From positions 1-41,911 of the forward strand of contig SXHN01000056.1 of NCBI GenBank assembly GCA_005773635.1: a DNA stretch of 41,911 nt. The letters run 5' to 3'. The first letter of the stretch is position 1, and every line of letters begins with the position of its first letter. Shown one piece after another: positions 4,248 through 16,040 of the stretch. The position numbers were made by a program, and so were the translations under genes. The notes beneath the pieces were generated by a model, which did no database searches, was not told where the DNA came from, and was given only the letters and a program-made list of their open reading frames with translations. The DNA comes from Actinomycetota bacterium (lineage in GTDB: Bacteria > Actinomycetota > Acidimicrobiia > IMCC26256 > PALSA-610).

Positions 4248-4289
4248 GGTTCTGATGTTGTGGCGGTCGGTCGCGCTACCGTCAACAAC

Positions 4290-5096
4290 ATGGCTGGGTC
4301 GCAGTATCGGAATTCGCAGCGTGTGGCGCCTTATCTTGCAGCCTCGGAGCGAGCATCTTGGGATCGTGACGGCTTCTTTGTTGTTGAGCGATTCATTTCG
4401 CAGCCCCGGCTATCTCCACTCATCGAGCGGATCCAACAGATTGCGGAAATCGCCGAAGTCGGCGGCGATATCGGTGATGCGATGCTAACTCGCGAATTGA
4501 TACTCGCCAACGAGCCAACCCCTGCGGGGCGTATTTCCAAGGTATTCAAGCTCCATCGCCGCGAGCCGCTGTTCAATGCTCTGGCTACTGATACGCGGCT
4601 TCTCAGTCGGGTGGCGGCACTCATCGGTGACAACGTTGATTGTTTCTTGTCGCAGTTCATTTTCAAACATCCCGGCGCGCTCGGCCAGCCTTGGCACCAG
4701 GATTCGTTCTACTTTCGTATGCACCCAGAGCCTCAGATTGGCGCGTGGCTCGCGGTCACTGAGGCACGAATTGACAATGGGCCCCTCTGGGTCGTGCCAG
4801 GGTCACATCGCGAACCGATACATGAGTCTGTGGTCCGTGACCTGCGAGCGCATGCTGATCCGTTTTATGTGGAGATCACCGGCGCCGATACTTCGACGGA
4901 GATTCCGGTGCTCATGAATCCCGGTGATCTTTTGGTGTTTCATTCACACCTTCGCCACCGCTCAACCGACAACCACAGCCACGACGATCGGGCATCGATG
5001 GTCTTGCATTACGCGCAGCAAGGAACGACCGGTTTCATCGCGCCAAACCATGATTGGATGCCGGTTGTCCGCAGTGGCGACACGGCGACAGAGTGA
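4290..5096 (+). CDS. Phytanoyl-CoA dioxygenase (PhyH) family protein
   Basis: A 268-residue Fe(II)/2-oxoglutarate-dependent oxygenase of the PhyH family. After 'RDGFFVVERFIS', the usual N-terminal family signature, the metal-binding HxD appears as 'WHQDSFYF', followed by 'GAWLAVTEARIDNGPLWVVPGSH' and the distal histidine and arginine in 'FHSHLRHRST'. All metal and 2-oxoglutarate ligands are thus present and the enzyme should be active in hydroxylating a small organic or lipid substrate. An alternative GTG start at 4260 exists; 4290 is chosen because TACCGT, a TANNNT box, ends seven bases before it and neither start has a Shine-Dalgarno. The stop codon overlaps the GTG start of the next gene by four bases, so the two are translationally coupled. 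Confidence 0.85.
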   Translation: MAGSQYRNSQRVAPYLAASERASWDRDGFFVVERFISQPRLSPLIERIQQIAEIAEVGGDIGDAMLTRELILANEPTPAGRISKVFKLHRREPLFNALATDTRLLSRVAALIGDNVDCFLSQFIFKHPGALGQPWHQDSFYFRMHPEPQIGAWLAVTEARIDNGPLWVVPGSHREPIHESVVRDLRAHADPFYVEITGADTSTEIPVLMNPGDLLVFHSHLRHRSTDNHSHDDRASMVLHYAQQGTTGFIAPNHDWMPVVRSGDTATE

Positions 5097-7616: not shown

Positions 7617-10600
7617 ATGAGTGGATCGGAACCGACTAGTTTCGCGCTGTCACGCCAACAAGATTTGCTGTGGCAACGACGGGCCAACAGCCCGGACGGC
7701 AGCGGTTTGTTCATGCAGATCGCGATGCCGATGGCCTCATCGGTCAGTACCGCCGACGTGCATTCCCGAGTTTCCAGCGCGGTTACTCGCCACGAAATTC
7801 TGCGCACCACCTACGCAACCGCGATTGGCCGAGTCGTTGGCGTGCAACATGTGCACGAGCATCATTCCGCAACGATTCGCGAATCCAATGAAGCAATCGA
7901 ATCAATACTGCTCGAAGAACGAGCTCCGTTTGCTCTCGATGCGAGCCCATTGCGGGTCGTCGTGGTGAAACCGGGCACCGAGAATGCCGTGATCATTCTC
8001 ACTCTCTCCGCGTTTGCAGCCGACGGAGCGTCGATATCGGCCCTGGCCGCGGAAATCGCCGGCGGCGTAGCCGTTTCCGATGACCCATTGCAGTATGTCG
8101 ACTACGCGGCATGGCAGGAAGACCTTCTCGCCGCTGAAACCGCCCCGACGGCAGGCAAGTTTTGGGCTGCGCTCGGCACTGGCGTTGTGGCGCGACTCCC
8201 ATTTCAGGTCGACGCAACAAGCGAGGACCCAGCCGCTCCTTATGTCGCCAGAGTGCCTATGAATCTTGCGGTTCTCAATGCCAACGCACAACTGCTTGGA
8301 GTCGACGCAGCCACGGTTGTGGCCAGCGCATGGTTCGCGTGGCTGTCCCGCGCATCACGCGAGAACGAAGTAACGGTGGCTGCGCTGTTCGATGGTCGTA
8401 CCAATGATGAACTCGCCGGTGCAATCGGTGCCTTTTCCCGGTTTGCCCCAGTGTGCGTCGACGTTGAGTCCGACCCAACCTTTGAAGCCTTGGTCGCAAC
8501 AGTGACGCAGGCGATTGAGGCCGGTGCTGCATTGCAAGATTTCGCGCCGCCAACGAGCGAATCGTTTCCTGCGTTCGCCGCGATCGCTCCAGCCGCAGGG
8601 TCGTTGGCTTTCACGACCGAAATCGACCGCCACCCCGTTGAGTTGCGATGGCTTGGCGACCGAGCAGAGCTAGTGGTTGATTCAGTGGCGATTCGTCGCG
8701 ACGACGCCGATGCCTTTGCCCGATCGATTTGCACGATGCTCGACACGCTGACCCCCACCACACCAGTGAGCGCGTTGCGACTGCTTGACGACCCGAAACC
8801 CGAACAACACGCATTTGAGTTGGCATGCGCGAATAGCTATACAGAGTTGTTCGAAGCTCAAGCAATGCGCACACCCGAACGTGCTGCAGTTGGGGCCGGG
8901 CCGAATCGAATGACCTATGAAGCGCTTGACGCTCGAGCGAACCAAGTTGCGCGCGCCTTGTGCGGCCTTGGGGTACAAGGCGGCTCGAACGTTGGGCTGT
9001 TAGTTGATCGTTCAACATCGCTGCTGGTCGGCATCCTCGGAATTTTGAAGGCAGGAGGCGCGTACGTTCCGCTGAATCCTGAACATCCGAGTGCACGAAT
9101 TTCGTACCAACTCGACGAAACGTCGGCCGCTGTTGTTGTCACGGTCGGCGAGCTTGTGTCGTTGGTTCCTGCGGGCTACACGGCGTTGAATCTCGACGAC
9201 GACGAAACGATCGATGTGGAAAGGTCGTCGCGTTTTCAATTGCAACGCCCCATTGCCGGAGATGACACTGCCTACGTGCTCTACACCTCGGGGTCGACTG
9301 GTACGCCGAAGGGTGTAGTCATCACGCATGCGAATTTGGTGAACTACTCAACGTTTTTGGCGGCGCGGCTGGAGGCCGCAGCCGGCGTTGAACCCGGTTC
9401 AGGGTTGCGGTGCGGTGCCGTCAGCGCGATCTCCACCGACCTCGGCAACACCTGTATTTTCCCTCCCCTGATTTCGGGTGGTTGTGTCGAACTCATTGCT
9501 GCTGACATTGTGGTCGATCCGTTTCGGTTCGCGGCGCATCTTGTCGACTACCCGATCGACGTGCTCAAGATCACCCCATCGCACCTCGGAGCGATCTTTG
9601 GCACGGTTGGTGCCGACGCGCTTCCAAGAAAAACTTTGGTTGTCGGCGGTGAGGCGTCGTCGTGGGATCTTGTCGGCCGCATTCAGGCCGCGGCTCCCGA
9701 CTTGGTGCTCATGAACCATTACGGACCGACGGAAACCACAATCGGCGCGTGCACGTTTGACATTGGTGGTGATCGCAGCCCGGGTCAACCCGCAACGGTG
9801 CCGATTGGCCAACCAATTGCCAACACGACCTGTGATGTAGTCGACTCGATACTGCAACCAGTACCCGTCGGATTTCCCGGTGAGTTATTGATCGGCGGTA
9901 GCGGTGTGGCGGTGGGCTACATCGGCCAGGCCGCACTCACCGACGAACGATTCATTGCGCACCCGCTCCGACCGGGTACGCGCGCGTACCGGACCGGTGA
10001 TTTGGTGCGCAAACTGCCCGACGGCAATATTGAGTTTTTGGGCCGCATCGATGATCAGCTGAAGATTCGCGGACACCGAATTGAGCCTGGTGAAATTGAG
10101 CGCGTCTTGCTTGGATGTGCTTCGTTGACCCAAGCCGCGGTCGTCGCTCGAGAGCACAGCCCAGGCGACTTGCGCCTCGTTGCGTATGTGGTGGCGGGCG
10201 GATCGCTCGACGTCGATGTTCTCCGGGCGGCAGTATCTGCGAAGCTCCCCGATTACATGGCTCCGTCTGCCTATGTGTCGCTCGATGCATTGCCACTGAC
10301 GCCGAGTGGCAAGCTCGATCGTCGTGCGCTTCCAGAACCACCCGCAGCTACAGACAGTTCGCGGACCCCTTACGTTGCGCCAAGGAGCGAAACCGAGACG
10401 CTGTTAGCTCACGCTTGGGCGGAGGTCCTGGGCGTTGAACAAGTCGGCGTGAATGATGACTTCTTCGCTCTGGGTGGTCATTCGCTGCTGGCAATGCAGG
10501 TCATCGCCCGGGCTCGTCACGCGGTCGGCATTGAGTTACCGTTGCATTCCTTGTTTGTTGCTCCAACCGTTGCCGGATTGGCAGATTTGGTCGATGAATT

Positions 10601-10715
10601 GCGATCAGGTATCGGCGGTGGTTCGATGTCTGACGACGACGCGGACGATGAGCTTTCGGCGCTGCTTGAAGGCATGACTGATGAAGAAATTGCACGCCTG
10701 CTGGCAGAGGACTAA
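7617..10715 (+). CDS. NRPS: degenerate condensation - adenylation (Asp code) - carrier domain
   Basis: A 1032-residue nonribosomal peptide synthetase module. Residues 1-380 form a condensation-like domain with LSRQQDLLW, RHEILRT and YVDYAAW, but the catalytic HHxxxDG reads SAFAADG at 131-137, so the active-site histidine is missing. The adenylation domain (about 405-905) has YTSGSTGTPKG, YGPTETT and a Lys899 in the A10 motif. Aligned to GrsA-PheA, the pocket residues are D608, L609, T612, K651, V675, G677, H701, I709, G710 and K899, which is the textbook code for aspartate. The carrier domain has LGGHSL with Ser956 as phosphopantetheine site, and the protein ends in an acidic tail (LEGMTDEEIARLLAED) that may dock to a partner. 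There is no thioesterase. The stop is three bases from the next NRPS gene. Confidence 0.92.
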   Translation: MSGSEPTSFALSRQQDLLWQRRANSPDGSGLFMQIAMPMASSVSTADVHSRVSSAVTRHEILRTTYATAIGRVVGVQHVHEHHSATIRESNEAIESILLEERAPFALDASPLRVVVVKPGTENAVIILTLSAFAADGASISALAAEIAGGVAVSDDPLQYVDYAAWQEDLLAAETAPTAGKFWAALGTGVVARLPFQVDATSEDPAAPYVARVPMNLAVLNANAQLLGVDAATVVASAWFAWLSRASRENEVTVAALFDGRTNDELAGAIGAFSRFAPVCVDVESDPTFEALVATVTQAIEAGAALQDFAPPTSESFPAFAAIAPAAGSLAFTTEIDRHPVELRWLGDRAELVVDSVAIRRDDADAFARSICTMLDTLTPTTPVSALRLLDDPKPEQHAFELACANSYTELFEAQAMRTPERAAVGAGPNRMTYEALDARANQVARALCGLGVQGGSNVGLLVDRSTSLLVGILGILKAGGAYVPLNPEHPSARISYQLDETSAAVVVTVGELVSLVPAGYTALNLDDDETIDVERSSRFQLQRPIAGDDTAYVLYTSGSTGTPKGVVITHANLVNYSTFLAARLEAAAGVEPGSGLRCGAVSAISTDLGNTCIFPPLISGGCVELIAADIVVDPFRFAAHLVDYPIDVLKITPSHLGAIFGTVGADALPRKTLVVGGEASSWDLVGRIQAAAPDLVLMNHYGPTETTIGACTFDIGGDRSPGQPATVPIGQPIANTTCDVVDSILQPVPVGFPGELLIGGSGVAVGYIGQAALTDERFIAHPLRPGTRAYRTGDLVRKLPDGNIEFLGRIDDQLKIRGHRIEPGEIERVLLGCASLTQAAVVAREHSPGDLRLVAYVVAGGSLDVDVLRAAVSAKLPDYMAPSAYVSLDALPLTPSGKLDRRALPEPPAATDSSRTPYVAPRSETETLLAHAWAEVLGVEQVGVNDDFFALGGHSLLAMQVIARARHAVGIELPLHSLFVAPTVAGLADLVDELRSGIGGGSMSDDDADDELSALLEGMTDEEIARLLAED

Positions 10716-10718
10716 CGA

Positions 10719-13700
10719 ATGAACGCGGCACGCCGAGCGCAAGGCTCAGATTCCATCACGGTGCCCCGGAGTTTCATCAGCGTGGTGCATGGGCATGCGG
10801 CGACACATCCCGATCGAGTCGCGTTGATCAACCCTGGTGCCCAGTCGTGGACGTATCGCGAGCTCGCATTGGCTGTCGAGGAGATGCGTGCATCGTTAGT
10901 CGCTCACGGCGTTGTCACAGGCGACCGCGTTGCGTTGGTGTCGCGTGGCAGCGCAGAATCGGTCGCGAGCTATTTGGCGATTACTGCGGCAAATACGGCA
11001 GTGCCGCTGAACCCGGCGTATCGGGAAGATGAATTTGATTTCGCATTTCAGGATTTGGGCGTGCGGGCGCTCGTCGTGGCAGATGCGCCAGAAGCTGAAC
11101 AAGTGGCGCAGCGCCGTGGTATTCCAATACTGCAAGTGTCGGCGGCGGTGGCGACCTCATCACCAACTGCGCCGCGTGGCGCAGGCGCGTCGCTCGACGA
11201 CATCGCGATCGTGTTGCACACATCAGGCACCACGTCGCGGCCCAAGATTGTGCCGTTGACGCACGCCAACATCATCACTGCATCTGATCAAATTCGATCC
11301 ACATTGGCGCTCACCGCTGATGACCGTTGTGTGAATGTCATGCCGACGTTTCACATTCATGGGCTGAGCGCGGTGCTGTCTACTTTGATTGCTGGCGGCA
11401 GCGTTGTGTGCCCCAGTGAGTTTGTTGCGCCCGACTTCTTTGAACTCATGCGCGACTATGCACCCACGTGGTACACGGCATCGCCCGCAATTCATCAGTC
11501 GGTATTCGAAGCAGCTTTGAAGCAGCCCGAAAGCCCCGTGCGACATTCGTTGCGCTTTATTCGGTCGGCGTCGTCGCCAATGCCGCCGACGCTAATTCGA
11601 GACATGGAGCAGGCGTTTCAGATCCCATTTCTTGAGGCATACGGCATGACCGAAACGTCGCCGATCATTTCGAGTAATCCACTTCCTCCAGCCGAGCGAA
11701 AGATCGGTTCCGTCGGGCGTGCGGCTGGGTGCCAGGTCGCGATTATGACCGATGCGATAGTGCTGCCCGAAGGCGAGACCGGCGAGATCGTGGTGCGAGG
11801 CGCCAACGTGATGCGCGAATACGAAAATGATCCGGGTGCCAACGCCGCGCAGTTCAGTGATGGATGGTTTCGTACCGGCGACCTTGGCCGTCTCGACGCT
11901 GACGGGTATTTGTTCGTGACTGGAAGGCTGAAGGAAATTATCAACCGCGGTGGAGAGAAAATCTCTCCGCCCGAAGTTGATAAAGCCTTGCTGTCGCATA
12001 CAAGTGTGGCCGCCGCTTGCGCGTTCCCGGTGCCTCACCCGAAACTTGGCGAAGAAGTCGCAGCTCTAGTAGTACTGAAGCCCGACCAAACCGCAACTGC
12101 TCGCGAATTGCAAGAACACGTCGCTGTCACACTCGCCGATTTCAAGGTTCCGCGCCACATCGTGTTTCGTGACGCGATCCCGTTGGGCAGTACCGGAAAA
12201 GTTGTCCGTTCAGCAATGGCGCAGCACTTGGAATTGACCGAGTTTTTCGGCAAGGCTGAATTGTCAGCGATGCAGGAGTTCTCGCTGGCGCGTTCACCGG
12301 AAGAAGAAATTCTCGCGGGAATTTGGGAGGAAGTCCTGCATGTCGAGCGCATCAGCATTCATGAAGACTTCTTCTCACTTGGCGGCGACTCGGTATTAGC
12401 AGCACAAGTGCTGACACGAGGCAACGACGCATTGGGCAGCGATTTATCGTTCCTCGACTTTTTCGAAAGCCCTACCATCGCCGAACTTGCCGCGCGCTCC
12501 GTGGTTGATCAAGGCGTTGGTGCGAGCACGACGCCCGTGCATCGCGCTCCCGATGGCGCGGTGTTGCCACTGTCGATTGGGCAGCACGCGCTCTTGGTAA
12601 TGCAGTTGTTGGATCCCAGTGATGGATCGAACAACGTGTACCGCGCTGTGCGCATGCGCGGGCCGCTCGATCACAATGCTCTCGTAGAGAGCCTTTCCGA
12701 ACTCGTGCAGCGCCACGACAGCTTGCGGACAACTTTCCCTGCTCATGATGGCAACGTTGTGCGAAATACCGCACCCTTCATGCGGCTGAAAGTGCCCGTG
12801 TCGGATCTCGCTGAGGTACCAGAGGCGAAACGCGAAGCGGTCGCGAAGGCTCTGATTGAGCGCGACGCCAAAACTCCGTTTGATCTTGAACAAGGCCCGA
12901 TGTTTCGGGCTCGGTTGGTGAAAATAAGTGAGCTCGATCACATCTTGTTGTTGACAATGCATCACATCATGGTGGATGGATGGTCGATTGGAATTTTGTG
13001 GAGTGAGCTCGAAGTGCTGTACGAAGCGTTTACCAACGCACGTAAGTCGCCGCTGCCGCAACCGGTGCTTCGCTATGGCGATTATGCGTACTGGCAGCGT
13101 GAACGGCTTCAAGGCGAGTACCTCGAATCTCTCAATGCGTATTGGAAGGCGCGCCTCAGCGGCGCACCGCAGCAGTTGAACCTGCCGTTCGATTTCGAAC
13201 GGCCGCCGATGCTGAAGCACACAGGTGCACGGTTGCGATTCGAATTTGGCGCGGATATCGCGACGCGTTTGAAGACTGTTGCGCGGGGCGAGAACGCAAC
13301 GTTGTTTATGGCACTGTTGGGAGCCTTTTCGGCATTGATGATGCACTATTCCGATCAAGACGACGTCGTGGTCGGAGGGCCGATCAGCGGCCGGGAACGC
13401 CCTGAGCTCGAGGGCCTGATCGGCTATTTCTCGAATTCGTTGGCGCTGCGGACTCGGCTCGATGGCGACCCAAACTTTTTGGAAGTGATTCGTCGCATTC
13501 GCACCACGGTACTGGAAGCCCATGCACATCGGGAGCTGCCGTTTGCAAGCGTTGTGGCGGCGGTTGGTGATACCCGAGTGATGAATCGGAATCCGTTGTT
13601 CCAACCCAATTTTCGATTGCGCAACATTCCTGCGTCGGATCCTGCCATGGTGGGCCTCGACGTTGCCGAGATCGACATGCACAACGGCTTCGCGAAGTTT

Positions 13701-13889
13701 GAGCTTGCATTCGAACTCTGGGAATCGACGCAGGGCTTGACCGGGTTCACAGAGTTCAGCACCGAACTGTTTGAAGCGCCGACGATTGCCGCGATGGTCG
13801 GCAAGTTTGAAGCGTTGCTCAGCGTCGTAGCTGATGCGCCGGAGTTGGCGCTGAGCGAGGTATTTCGACAACTAGTACAAGCGGCGTGA
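10719..13889 (+). CDS. NRPS-like: acyl-activating domain - carrier - condensation domain
   Basis: A 1056-residue protein with an unusual order. Residues 1-520 are an AMP-dependent acyl-activating enzyme with LHTSGTTSRPK (164-182), YGMTETS (308) and the A10 lysine near 492. Its closest resemblance by eye is the oxalyl-CoA synthetase/AAE3/Pcs60 type (PTWYTASPAIHQ, LRFIRSASSPM, INRGGEKISPPEVD), not an amino-acid A domain. A carrier domain follows (GGDS, Ser558), then from about 610 a full condensation domain with SIGQHALLVMQ, RHDSLRT, an intact HHIMVDG at 748-754 and YGDYAYW. The likely role is to load a carboxylic acid on its own carrier and join it to the amine of aspartate held by the upstream-encoded module. 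The acid is not predictable. No termination domain follows the C domain. Confidence 0.9.
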   Translation: MNAARRAQGSDSITVPRSFISVVHGHAATHPDRVALINPGAQSWTYRELALAVEEMRASLVAHGVVTGDRVALVSRGSAESVASYLAITAANTAVPLNPAYREDEFDFAFQDLGVRALVVADAPEAEQVAQRRGIPILQVSAAVATSSPTAPRGAGASLDDIAIVLHTSGTTSRPKIVPLTHANIITASDQIRSTLALTADDRCVNVMPTFHIHGLSAVLSTLIAGGSVVCPSEFVAPDFFELMRDYAPTWYTASPAIHQSVFEAALKQPESPVRHSLRFIRSASSPMPPTLIRDMEQAFQIPFLEAYGMTETSPIISSNPLPPAERKIGSVGRAAGCQVAIMTDAIVLPEGETGEIVVRGANVMREYENDPGANAAQFSDGWFRTGDLGRLDADGYLFVTGRLKEIINRGGEKISPPEVDKALLSHTSVAAACAFPVPHPKLGEEVAALVVLKPDQTATARELQEHVAVTLADFKVPRHIVFRDAIPLGSTGKVVRSAMAQHLELTEFFGKAELSAMQEFSLARSPEEEILAGIWEEVLHVERISIHEDFFSLGGDSVLAAQVLTRGNDALGSDLSFLDFFESPTIAELAARSVVDQGVGASTTPVHRAPDGAVLPLSIGQHALLVMQLLDPSDGSNNVYRAVRMRGPLDHNALVESLSELVQRHDSLRTTFPAHDGNVVRNTAPFMRLKVPVSDLAEVPEAKREAVAKALIERDAKTPFDLEQGPMFRARLVKISELDHILLLTMHHIMVDGWSIGILWSELEVLYEAFTNARKSPLPQPVLRYGDYAYWQRERLQGEYLESLNAYWKARLSGAPQQLNLPFDFERPPMLKHTGARLRFEFGADIATRLKTVARGENATLFMALLGAFSALMMHYSDQDDVVVGGPISGRERPELEGLIGYFSNSLALRTRLDGDPNFLEVIRRIRTTVLEAHAHRELPFASVVAAVGDTRVMNRNPLFQPNFRLRNIPASDPAMVGLDVAEIDMHNGFAKFELAFELWESTQGLTGFTEFSTELFEAPTIAAMVGKFEALLSVVADAPELALSEVFRQLVQAA

Positions 13890-13910
13890 ACCGTGGAAAG
13901 TGTGGCAAGC

Positions 13911-14924
13911 ATGTCGGGAACTACTGACCCAACGCCGGTGGCATTTCGATTGCCCCGCACCTACGACGTCGCCCTACTGGTCCGCGACCTTGAAGCGCTG
14001 CGTAGGTTCGATCAAGCTCCGCAACCGGGGCCGTATCACGGTGGTGAGTGGACCGGGCTTGCACTGCGATCGATGGGCGGAAAGCAGTCTCCGGATCCGA
14101 GTGCTGCAGGGATGGACAACTACGAGTACACCGAAGCTTTGGAGCACGCGCCCTATCTCAAACAGATTCTGGATGAACTCGCATGTCCAATTGAGGTCGT
14201 TCGGATTCTCACGCTTCCTCCCGGTGGTCACATCAAAGAACACTTCGATTATCACACGAATTTCCAGTACGGCCTGCTGCGGCTCCACATCCCGATTGTC
14301 ACGCACCCTGACGTTGAGTTCATCATTGGTGGTCAGCGCGTTGATTTCAAAGCTGGTGAGTTCTGGTTCGGTGACTTTTCCAAGGTGCATTCCGTCGAAA
14401 ACAAAAGCGATATCACTCGCGTCCACATGGTGATCGACGTGCAAATCAACGATTTCATGCTCGATATGTTCCCAGCGGAATACGTCGCGCTACGTCGCGC
14501 GGAGGGCGGAATCGCCATTACTCGCGAGCCGCTGAGCGCGTCGGAAGCTGAGCTACGCAAGCTGACGTGCGACTTTCGAATTCCCGGTGAGTTCATGCCG
14601 TTATTTGTGCTCGGCAAACCTATGCAGACACTGATCAAGGGGGCGCGTGCGAGCGCTCGCCTCATCGACTCGAAATTTACGGTGTTGTTGGATAACGAAC
14701 CGACGTTTGTATTACATCCAGTCGCAGAAAACACGTTCGGCGTCGCGGGGTTGCCGCCTGGTATCACGTTTCGTTTCAACGAGGTCGATGGGGTGGTGCG
14801 GTCGGTCGATTTGGACCTGAAGGGCCTGCCGAAAGATTTGTACTTTGCGCGGCTTGGCTTCTCGAAAGGCGAGGCCGTGACTGATCGTTCGGTTTCGCTT
14901 CCCGTTCTGGATGACGTGAACTGA
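13911..14924 (+). CDS. Aspartyl/asparaginyl beta-hydroxylase-like dioxygenase with extra C-terminal domain
   Basis: A protein of about 337 residues. The first ~190 residues are an Asp/Asn beta-hydroxylase-type Fe(II)/2-oxoglutarate dioxygenase: 'LTLPPGGHIKEHFDYH' (His107, His111, Asp113 region), 'LRLHIPI' and the distal 'HSVENKSDITRVHMVID', which carries the second metal histidine and the 2-oxoglutarate arginine. The remaining ~140 residues form a second unit of beta character ('TVLLDNEPTFVLHPV', 'ITFRFNEVDGVVRSVDL') that resembles the small DUF3471-like barrel found after serine hydrolase domains; this resemblance is tentative. It sits between an NRPS with an aspartate code and a glycosyltransferase, so beta-hydroxylation of carrier-bound or released aspartate is the natural inference. 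A GTG at 13893 is an alternative start; GGAAAG lies ten bases before 13911. Confidence 0.82.
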   Translation: MSGTTDPTPVAFRLPRTYDVALLVRDLEALRRFDQAPQPGPYHGGEWTGLALRSMGGKQSPDPSAAGMDNYEYTEALEHAPYLKQILDELACPIEVVRILTLPPGGHIKEHFDYHTNFQYGLLRLHIPIVTHPDVEFIIGGQRVDFKAGEFWFGDFSKVHSVENKSDITRVHMVIDVQINDFMLDMFPAEYVALRRAEGGIAITREPLSASEAELRKLTCDFRIPGEFMPLFVLGKPMQTLIKGARASARLIDSKFTVLLDNEPTFVLHPVAENTFGVAGLPPGITFRFNEVDGVVRSVDLDLKGLPKDLYFARLGFSKGEAVTDRSVSLPVLDDVN

Positions 14925-14930
14925 GCGCAA

Positions 14931-16040
14931 ATGCGACGTACGACAGCGCCGATGCGCATTGTTCATCTGATCCCGCATCTCAATTTTGGTGGCACCCAAG
15001 AGGTGGTGCGCAGCCTTGCCATCGAACAAAAGGCACGCGGACACGACGTTTCGGTACTGAGTTGGGAGTACCCAGGCATGCATCCCGACACCGAACGGTT
15101 GCTGACTGAGGTCGGGATCAGCGTGCAAGCTGCTCGCGAACACAGCGACCATCGCCTGGCGTCGATGCGCACATTGCGCAGCCGACTGGGTGGCGAAAAG
15201 ATCGACGTCGTGCACATTCATAATCCGTTTGAATACTGCTTCTACGGAGCACTTGTTGCAAGGCTGCGGCGGGGTACCAAAGTGGTCCTCACCGTGCATG
15301 CAACGACGATGTTTGATCGCTTTGGCTGGAAGCACCGAGCGTTTTTTGTTTTGGGATCGATGTTGACCCATCGCATCACGTCGGTGTGCGACGAGACGCG
15401 CCAAATTGTCAGGGAACGGTTTCGGATTTCGAAGCGCAAGCTTGTAGTCGTGGAAAACGGTATCGACGTTTCAAAGTTCCTTGCTGTGCCGCCACGTCAG
15501 CGCTCAGATCACGTTGTGTTCGGCGCAGTCGGACGAATTACGAAAGGGAAAAATCAACGATTGGCGGTTGAGGCATTCGCGTTGGCGCACGCAGTACACC
15601 CTGGCATCAGCCTGCGGTTGTTAGGCGGCGGCGCTGAAGAAATTCCTGCACTCCAGAGCTTTGCGGATGAGTGCGGAGTTGCTGATGGTGTCGAGTTCCT
15701 TGAGTTCAGTACGGATGTCGCTGGATTCCTCGGAGCAATCGATGTTTTCGTGATGCCTTCGAGAAGTGAAGGGCTCCCGCTCAGCGTGCTTGAGGCCATT
15801 GCTTCGGGGCTGCCGGTGATTGCAACCGATGTCGGCGGGGTTCGCAAGGTTGTCGAAACGACGAACAGCGGTTGGATGTGTGCGTCCGACGACGCCGAGG
15901 CGATGAAGATCGCGATGATCGCAAGTATCGAAGACCCGGGCGCGACGGATCAGACCGAGGCGGCACGGCACATTGTGGTCGAACGCTACGGAGTGCCGCG
16001 TATGGCCAATGATTACCAAGCTGTGTACGCGGAGTTGTGA
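14931..16040 (+). CDS. GT4-family glycosyltransferase
   Basis: A 369-residue GT-B glycosyltransferase. The N-terminal Rossmann half begins 'MRIVHLIPHLNFGGTQEVV', the typical sugar-acceptor domain start with a GG loop. The C-terminal half has 'GAVGRITKGKNQ' and the donor-binding E-x7-E region 'PSRSEGLPLSVLEAIASG' followed by 'PVIATDVGG', as in GT4 retaining enzymes using nucleotide sugars. No membrane helix is present, so it acts in the cytoplasm or at the membrane face. The start may be the ATG at 14931 or the one at 14952, where homology begins. It is the last gene of the tightly packed NRPS operon (six bases after the hydroxylase), suggesting that it modifies the NRPS product, although a housekeeping envelope role is possible. 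Confidence 0.88.
   Translation: MRRTTAPMRIVHLIPHLNFGGTQEVVRSLAIEQKARGHDVSVLSWEYPGMHPDTERLLTEVGISVQAAREHSDHRLASMRTLRSRLGGEKIDVVHIHNPFEYCFYGALVARLRRGTKVVLTVHATTMFDRFGWKHRAFFVLGSMLTHRITSVCDETRQIVRERFRISKRKLVVVENGIDVSKFLAVPPRQRSDHVVFGAVGRITKGKNQRLAVEAFALAHAVHPGISLRLLGGGAEEIPALQSFADECGVADGVEFLEFSTDVAGFLGAIDVFVMPSRSEGLPLSVLEAIASGLPVIATDVGGVRKVVETTNSGWMCASDDAEAMKIAMIASIEDPGATDQTEAARHIVVERYGVPRMANDYQAVYAEL

Follow-up and report, generated by a model that had tools for sequence, protein, structure and literature searches.

Which enzyme would hydroxylate the aspartate that a compact nonribosomal peptide synthetase (NRPS) operon of an Acidimicrobiia genome is predicted to activate, the dioxygenase encoded within the operon or one encoded elsewhere? 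The operon consists of four adjacent open reading frames at positions 7617-16040 of the window, by which we mean the whole stretch of 41,911 nucleotides analysed, contig SXHN01000056.1 (here C32) of an Actinomycetota bacterium (assembly GCA_005773635.1) whose draft genome is 95% complete in 125 contigs. A first-pass annotation had proposed an N-acyl-beta-hydroxyaspartate as the likely product and had presented the AspH-type enzyme of the operon as a different solution from the usual TauD/SyrP-type hydroxylases. The operon itself, aspartate activation by gene 1 (from its code) and the acyl-activating partner protein encoded by gene 2 with its carrier (T) and condensation (C) domains are supported, and the prediction of a beta-hydroxyaspartate is strengthened by a pseudo-condensation (pseudo-C) domain of interface type in gene 1, because this domain falls in a clade of beta-hydroxyaspartate modules. 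The novelty claimed for the hydroxylase is doubtful, since the same genome carries a clade-matched TauD gene beside a phosphopantetheinyl transferase (PPTase) gene on contig C28. Our preferred reading, offered tentatively and at slightly less than an even chance, is a split two-protein line that yields an N-acyl-beta-hydroxyaspartyl unit, with the C28 TauD acting in trans, the gene 3 dioxygenase supplying a further hydroxylation and the gene 4 enzyme, a GT4 glycosyltransferase, adding a sugar.

The adenylation (A) domain of gene 1 was aligned to the GrsA-PheA core, which as a self-check yields its own code, DAWTIAAICK. The ten pocket residues are D608, L609, T612, K651, V675, G677, H701, I709, G710 and K899, identical to those listed in the first-pass annotation; they spell DLTKVGHIGK, the standard aspartate code, and gene 1 is thus predicted to be aspartate-activating. 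That annotation had read the A domain correctly but had overlooked the condensation-like domain in front of it, which matches PF00668 weakly (78 bits, over profile positions 6-321 of 456 only) and has SAFAADG at the catalytic site. Both catalytic histidines are absent, whereas about 30 aligned canonical C domains that came up in these searches, the gene 2 domain (MHHIMVDG) among them, keep them, and the N-terminal domain of gene 1 is, as judged from its sequence, an inactive condensation domain. Over its full length the protein is similar to cyanobacterial proteins of the same interface (I)-A-T layout, and the tblastn matches to plasmids that span most of it are Leptolyngbya proteins of this layout. 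Reitz and colleagues are said to have used the term 'interface domain', in 2019, for an inactive C-superfamily domain in a module whose amino acid is beta-hydroxylated. antiSMASH 8 has a profile for such domains, and they are recognised as a subtype of bacterial C domains (PMC12230676, PMC10212144). We read the gene 1 pseudo-C as a domain of this kind that may dock a hydroxylase on the T-bound aspartate, but because no TauD is fused to gene 1 or lies directly upstream of it on contig C32, we term it interface-type rather than a proven member.

Phylogenetic reconstruction by maximum likelihood groups the gene 1 pseudo-C with cyanobacterial pseudo-C domains of beta-hydroxyaspartate modules (support 100/98, unchanged after dropping 24 columns around the active site), and a wider tree places it with Eleftheria terrae and Azospirillum oryzae (97/92). 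With these two proteobacterial members added, the clade comprises 12 domains including that of gene 1 (98/99), the twelfth being a second Gloeothece module with LPALCSD at its active site. A TauD-type hydroxylase pairs with every one of the 11 other modules, directly upstream. Eight of them were reached through searches with the pseudo-C domain or gene 1, and in all eight the TauD either stands alone or forms part of the preceding protein, with 47-60% identity to the L. boryana enzyme (L. boryana being counted among the eight); no TauD lies upstream at a control locus with a canonical C domain (L124). The remaining three (Eleftheria, Azospirillum and the second Gloeothece module) are not independent, being hits of a search with TauD itself. 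Five loci were opened on the strength of that search; in S. decoyicus the A protein has no C domain, and in Variovorax the reading frame is unclear. The clade includes both aspartate modules of cyanochelin B (BAU16012 and BAU16061), the cluster for which lies on plasmid 2 of Leptolyngbya sp. NIES-3755 (AP017310.1) and the product of which is a siderophore with two beta-hydroxyaspartates (PMC12628792). One of these residues is attributed to BAU16061 (CcsL) and the self-standing hydroxylase CcsK, and the other to a module that follows an NRPS-fused hydroxylase (PMC12628792). We take BAU16012 (code DLTKIGHVGK, LPALCAD at the active site) to be the latter module, because BAU16013 ends in a TauD domain immediately before it.

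Across the 11 loci read, pseudo-C domains of the LPALCAD type stand at the start of mostly aspartate-coding modules and are always preceded by TauD, so the signature could serve to spot beta-hydroxylated residues in the NRPS of cyanobacteria and proteobacteria. A rhizobial family of pseudo-C matches was set aside, its active site being altered differently (MHNMVSD and similar) from the LPALCAD form; on rhizobial plasmids, a condensation-domain protein with this alteration lies beside lysine 2,3-aminomutase genes.

Five TauD genes are present in the genome, one of which (C28:60168-61268) belongs to the clade of interface partners. Its product is 42-49% identical to the TauD domains that are fused to the proteins preceding interface modules (44-49% for most of them); a quick tree places it with the TauDs of Eleftheria, Azospirillum and Variovorax, and its HNE...H motif is intact. 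An Sfp-type PPTase gene follows 15 bases downstream (the two genes span C28:60168-62012), and the TauD is an amino acid beta-hydroxylase of the SyrP/TauD type that stands alone, with no NRPS gene nearby. Because, of the four C domains in the genome, only that of gene 1 was found to be a pseudo-C of this type, and because the interface module of gene 1 and the C28 TauD are both nearest to the same proteobacterial pairs, the C28 enzyme may by elimination be a good candidate for hydroxylating aspartate on gene 1 in trans. Several observations pull the other way. The C28 TauD is encoded on another contig than the operon, where a different NRPS gene lies 17 kb away; it is gene 3, not a TauD, that is located in the operon, where aspartate is the only amino acid activated; the draft genome may miss partners; the gene 1 pseudo-C sits on a long branch (1.7-2.4) in the trees; and its interface function is drawn from literature and context.

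Taken in the order gene 2 then gene 1, the two synthetase proteins read acyl ligase (AL)-T-C followed by I-A(Asp)-T, which is the C-I-A-T order of interface modules split over two proteins. Gene 2 had already been described as an acyl-activating-T-C protein, and Pfam finds AMP-binding, PP-binding and Condensation domains in it. In the preferred reading, gene 2 would activate an acyl group and hold it on its own T domain, and its C domain would join that group to the aspartate carried by the T domain of the gene 1 protein, where the pseudo-C would dock a beta-hydroxylase, most likely the TauD/SyrP-type enzyme of C28 in trans. Gene 3 would carry out another hydroxylation, with the acyl chain the most likely target by analogy with LpxO and OlsC, and the GT4 enzyme would glycosylate one hydroxyl. 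Because the operon has no thioesterase (TE), release would require an enzyme encoded outside it or non-enzymatic hydrolysis; the genome's other two NRPS genes each end in a TE. In this reading the order of domains, the aspartate code, the dead pseudo-C with its clade and the C28 TauD with its clade come directly from the sequence, and the reactions, the docking, the pairing in trans, the identities of acyl group and sugar and the mode of release are inferences.

Fusion of the ligase to T and C domains suggests that gene 2 loads a carrier protein. Among proteins of solved structure the ligase is closest to three oxalyl-CoA synthetases (E 3.5e-104 to 2.5e-91), which would be in keeping with loading of oxalate and a product N-oxalyl-(hydroxy)aspartate. 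We regard this as very improbable, given that the ligase has G and P at two positions invariant in the three oxalate enzymes (AYA; the H of MTEA[ST]H), one of which would probably face the substrate as AAE3 His319 does, and that NCBIfam also names the family as fatty acid-CoA ligases (FadD7). A general starter-acid role appears likelier, because many Acidimicrobiia have related AL-T proteins (43-46%) at the head of their NRPS lines. Free AL-T starter didomains of Acidimicrobiia related to oxalyl-CoA synthetases keep the MTEAxH histidine and also have the G.

The dioxygenase of the operon clearly belongs to PF05118 (Asp_Arg_Hydrox; 64.3 bits against a cut-off of 22.6), but the part of the first-pass annotation that made it AspH-like is doubtful. 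AspH-like enzymes have a metal site without the carboxylate (HxG), and gene 3 lacks this site, having instead the full HxD...H triad (H117-F-D119...H166) together with RxH at 130-132 and R176, motifs conserved in nearly all aligned relatives. No AspH chain was matched in the PDB, where the sole significant match is L-proline cis-4-hydroxylase (4p7w; 1.9e-6, 30.7 bits). The C-terminal region of about 115 residues (14568-14924) has no Pfam match, is absent from the Planctomycetales relative described below and is predicted to be beta-rich by a low-confidence AlphaFold model (two-row alignment, pLDDT 34). The gene for the closest relative found (48% identical) immediately follows a multi-module NRPS-TE gene on a Planctomycetales contig, together with a further thioesterase-like gene and one resembling an ABC exporter, and relatives at 33-38% occur in Streptomyces plasmid clusters with a P450, a PGM1-like peptide ligase, an amidinotransferase and an ATP-grasp enzyme. 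Because of these NRPS-TE and peptide-ligase neighbourhoods, this branch of PF05118 is, by genomic context, at home in peptide natural product clusters, and either the aspartate or the acyl chain could be the substrate of gene 3. The Streptomyces cluster recurs as P450, PGM1-like peptide ligase, PF05118, glycine amidinotransferase, ATP-grasp and aminoglycoside phosphotransferase, and looks as if it specifies a peptide made by ligases, so far uncharacterised, along with a kinase for self-resistance.

If gene 3 hydroxylates the carrier-bound aspartate, it would have taken over the interface docking site from TauD, leaving the C28 enzyme to serve something else, and the product would be a glycosylated N-acyl-beta-hydroxyaspartate. 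We consider this a real possibility, although a minority one: gene 3 shares the operon with the only aspartate module, is the genome's only PF05118 gene, retains its triad and 2-oxoglutarate residues, and has the peptide-associated relatives just described, but the 11 other pseudo-C modules pair with TauD and not with PF05118, the genome has a suitable TauD, and the Planctomycetales contig has neither a pseudo-C nor an aspartate code in the part read. The claim that a PF05118 oxygenase has replaced TauD on the interface domain and hydroxylates the carrier aspartate, making this the smallest beta-hydroxyaspartate line seen here with a product that is then glycosylated, is in our judgement rather unlikely; if true, it would place a second, unrelated hydroxylase family on the same docking platform. 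Less probable again is that no beta-hydroxyaspartate is made, the pseudo-C being a relic, gene 3 hydroxylating the acyl chain of an N-acyl-aspartate and gene 4 glycosylating it to give a glycolipid-like amino acid. The only NCBIfam match of gene 3 is LpxO (far under the cut-off, 23.5 bits against 500), OlsC is a PF05118 acyl hydroxylase and the operon has no siderophore features, all of which would fit, but the pseudo-C can still be recognised as such and the genome does encode a clade-matched TauD.

An iron-binding role for beta-hydroxyaspartate, with the operon supplying part of a metallophore (siderophore), would accord with the closest I-A(Asp)-T modules, which come from siderophore clusters such as that of cyanochelin B. 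The operon would, however, supply one bidentate unit, and the genes scanned in the 41.9-kb window, to which the count of iron transporters is confined, include no iron or metal transporter, TE or second chelator. We therefore treat a siderophore product as unsupported and improbable, and the metal-binding role suggested earlier as doubtful. Gene 4 encodes a GT4 enzyme, as the first-pass annotation had it, with both GT4 halves above the Pfam cut-off. The protein is nearest to exopolysaccharide-type glycosyltransferases (TIGR03088), and its nearest PDB entries, of low similarity, are BshA-type enzymes. Identity with BshA (GlcNAc-malate synthase) was rejected at 107.4 bits against an NCBIfam equivalog cut-off of 273.7, and the likeness is too low to be used as a guide to a malate or hydroxyaspartate acceptor.

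The features of the operon are collected in the table below.

Table. Genes and domains of the operon, in positions of the window
Feature	Position	Strand	Details and evidence
Gene 1, I(pseudo-C)-A(Asp)-T NRPS protein, stand-alone	7617-10715	+	1032 aa; Pfam
Interface-type pseudo-condensation domain, gene 1 aa 10-309	7644-8543	+	PF00668, 6.1e-22
SAFAADG at the catalytic HHxxxDG site, gene 1 aa 131-137	8007-8027	+	Alignment with ~30 canonical C domains
Adenylation domain, gene 1 aa 412-899, code DLTKVGHIGK	8850-10313	+	Alignment to GrsA-PheA core
Carrier (T) domain, gene 1, FALGGHSL	10404-10592	+	Pfam
Gene 2, acyl ligase-T-C protein	10719-13889	+	1056 aa; Pfam
Acyl-activating domain, gene 2	10794-12200	+	Closest solved relatives oxalyl-CoA synthetases (FadD7/AAE3 family)
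Carrier (T) domain, gene 2, FSLGGDSV	12312-12494	+	Pfam
Canonical condensation domain, gene 2, MHHIMVDG intact	12561-13862	+	Pfam, alignment
Gene 3, PF05118 Fe(II)/2-oxoglutarate dioxygenase	13893-14924	+	343 aa, GTG start, in-frame ATG at 13911
Gene 4, GT4 glycosyltransferase	14931-16040	+	369 aa; Pfam

All four frames are open, and the small intergenic gaps reported earlier (3-21 bases) were confirmed as 3, 3 and 6 bases, the second becoming 21 if gene 3 starts at the internal ATG. Base composition is unremarkable (0.56-0.60 GC), and promoter and terminator scans gave fewer sites than shuffled sequences. Another Fe(II)/2-oxoglutarate enzyme, a phytanoyl-CoA dioxygenase (PhyH; 4260-5096), is encoded on the same strand 2.5 kb upstream, with other genes between. 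No orthologous operon was found in 120 relatives and 396 genomes of the phylum with the hydroxylase as query, in 395 genomes of the class with gene 2, or in 396 genomes of the phylum with gene 1. Within the same genus the right flank (the ABH2-SDR2-UvrD pair) is syntenic, and the contig ends where the operon would begin. Matches to PF05118 in related genomes (29-36%) lie inside long open frames, and no NRPS gene is located beside the one that was read. In that Acidimicrobiia relative (L018:6684-9743), PF05118 forms the N-terminal part of a 1019-residue protein that continues with sulfotransferase-like and repeat-like regions, and similar long frames occur in other members of the class. The genome itself contains a second small NRPS locus (contig C102; L026:10255-16053) encoding AL-T plus C-A-T-TE, which is conserved in the same genus and in whose C-domain motif Ser takes the place of His (SHLIFDG / SHLGFDG).

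Among known systems, the cyanochelin B aspartate modules come close to the operon in having a pseudo-C-A(Asp, DLTKIGHVGK)-T arrangement, a canonical C domain on the preceding protein and a beta-hydroxyaspartate product. They differ in that TauD is fused to the preceding protein or encoded directly upstream, in the long polyketide synthase/NRPS line and transporter cassette to which they belong, and in that no PF05118 or GT4 gene was found adjoining them. The plasmid-borne NRPS pairs of E. terrae and A. oryzae (fused TauD // I-A(Asp)-T) carry aspartate codes and the nearest relatives of both the pseudo-C and the C28 TauD, but their TauD is fused to the upstream NRPS in cis and their lines are multi-modular. 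With the interface domains of IbetaH-Asp siderophore systems the operon shares an inactive C-superfamily domain, whereas its own hydroxylase belongs to PF05118; the known siderophore hydroxylase partners have been aligned to TauD PF02668 (PMC12971057). Gene 3 shares with L-proline cis-4-hydroxylase (4p7w) the PF05118 fold family, the HxD...H triad and the RxH 2-oxoglutarate motif, but has an extra C-terminal region and is similar at just the 30.7 bits given above. L-proline cis-4-hydroxylase acts on free proline. Gene 2 resembles the oxalyl-CoA synthetases AAE3 and Pcs60 (FadD7 family) along its entire ligase part but differs in pocket positions and in its fused T and C domains. Set beside these systems, the operon warns that a hydroxylase encoded inside an operon need not act on the obvious substrate. 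With one acyl ligase, one aspartate module and two candidate hydroxylases, it also offers a minimal system for interface-docking tests with purified proteins, in which it can be seen whether a PF05118 enzyme acts on an NRPS-bound amino acid.

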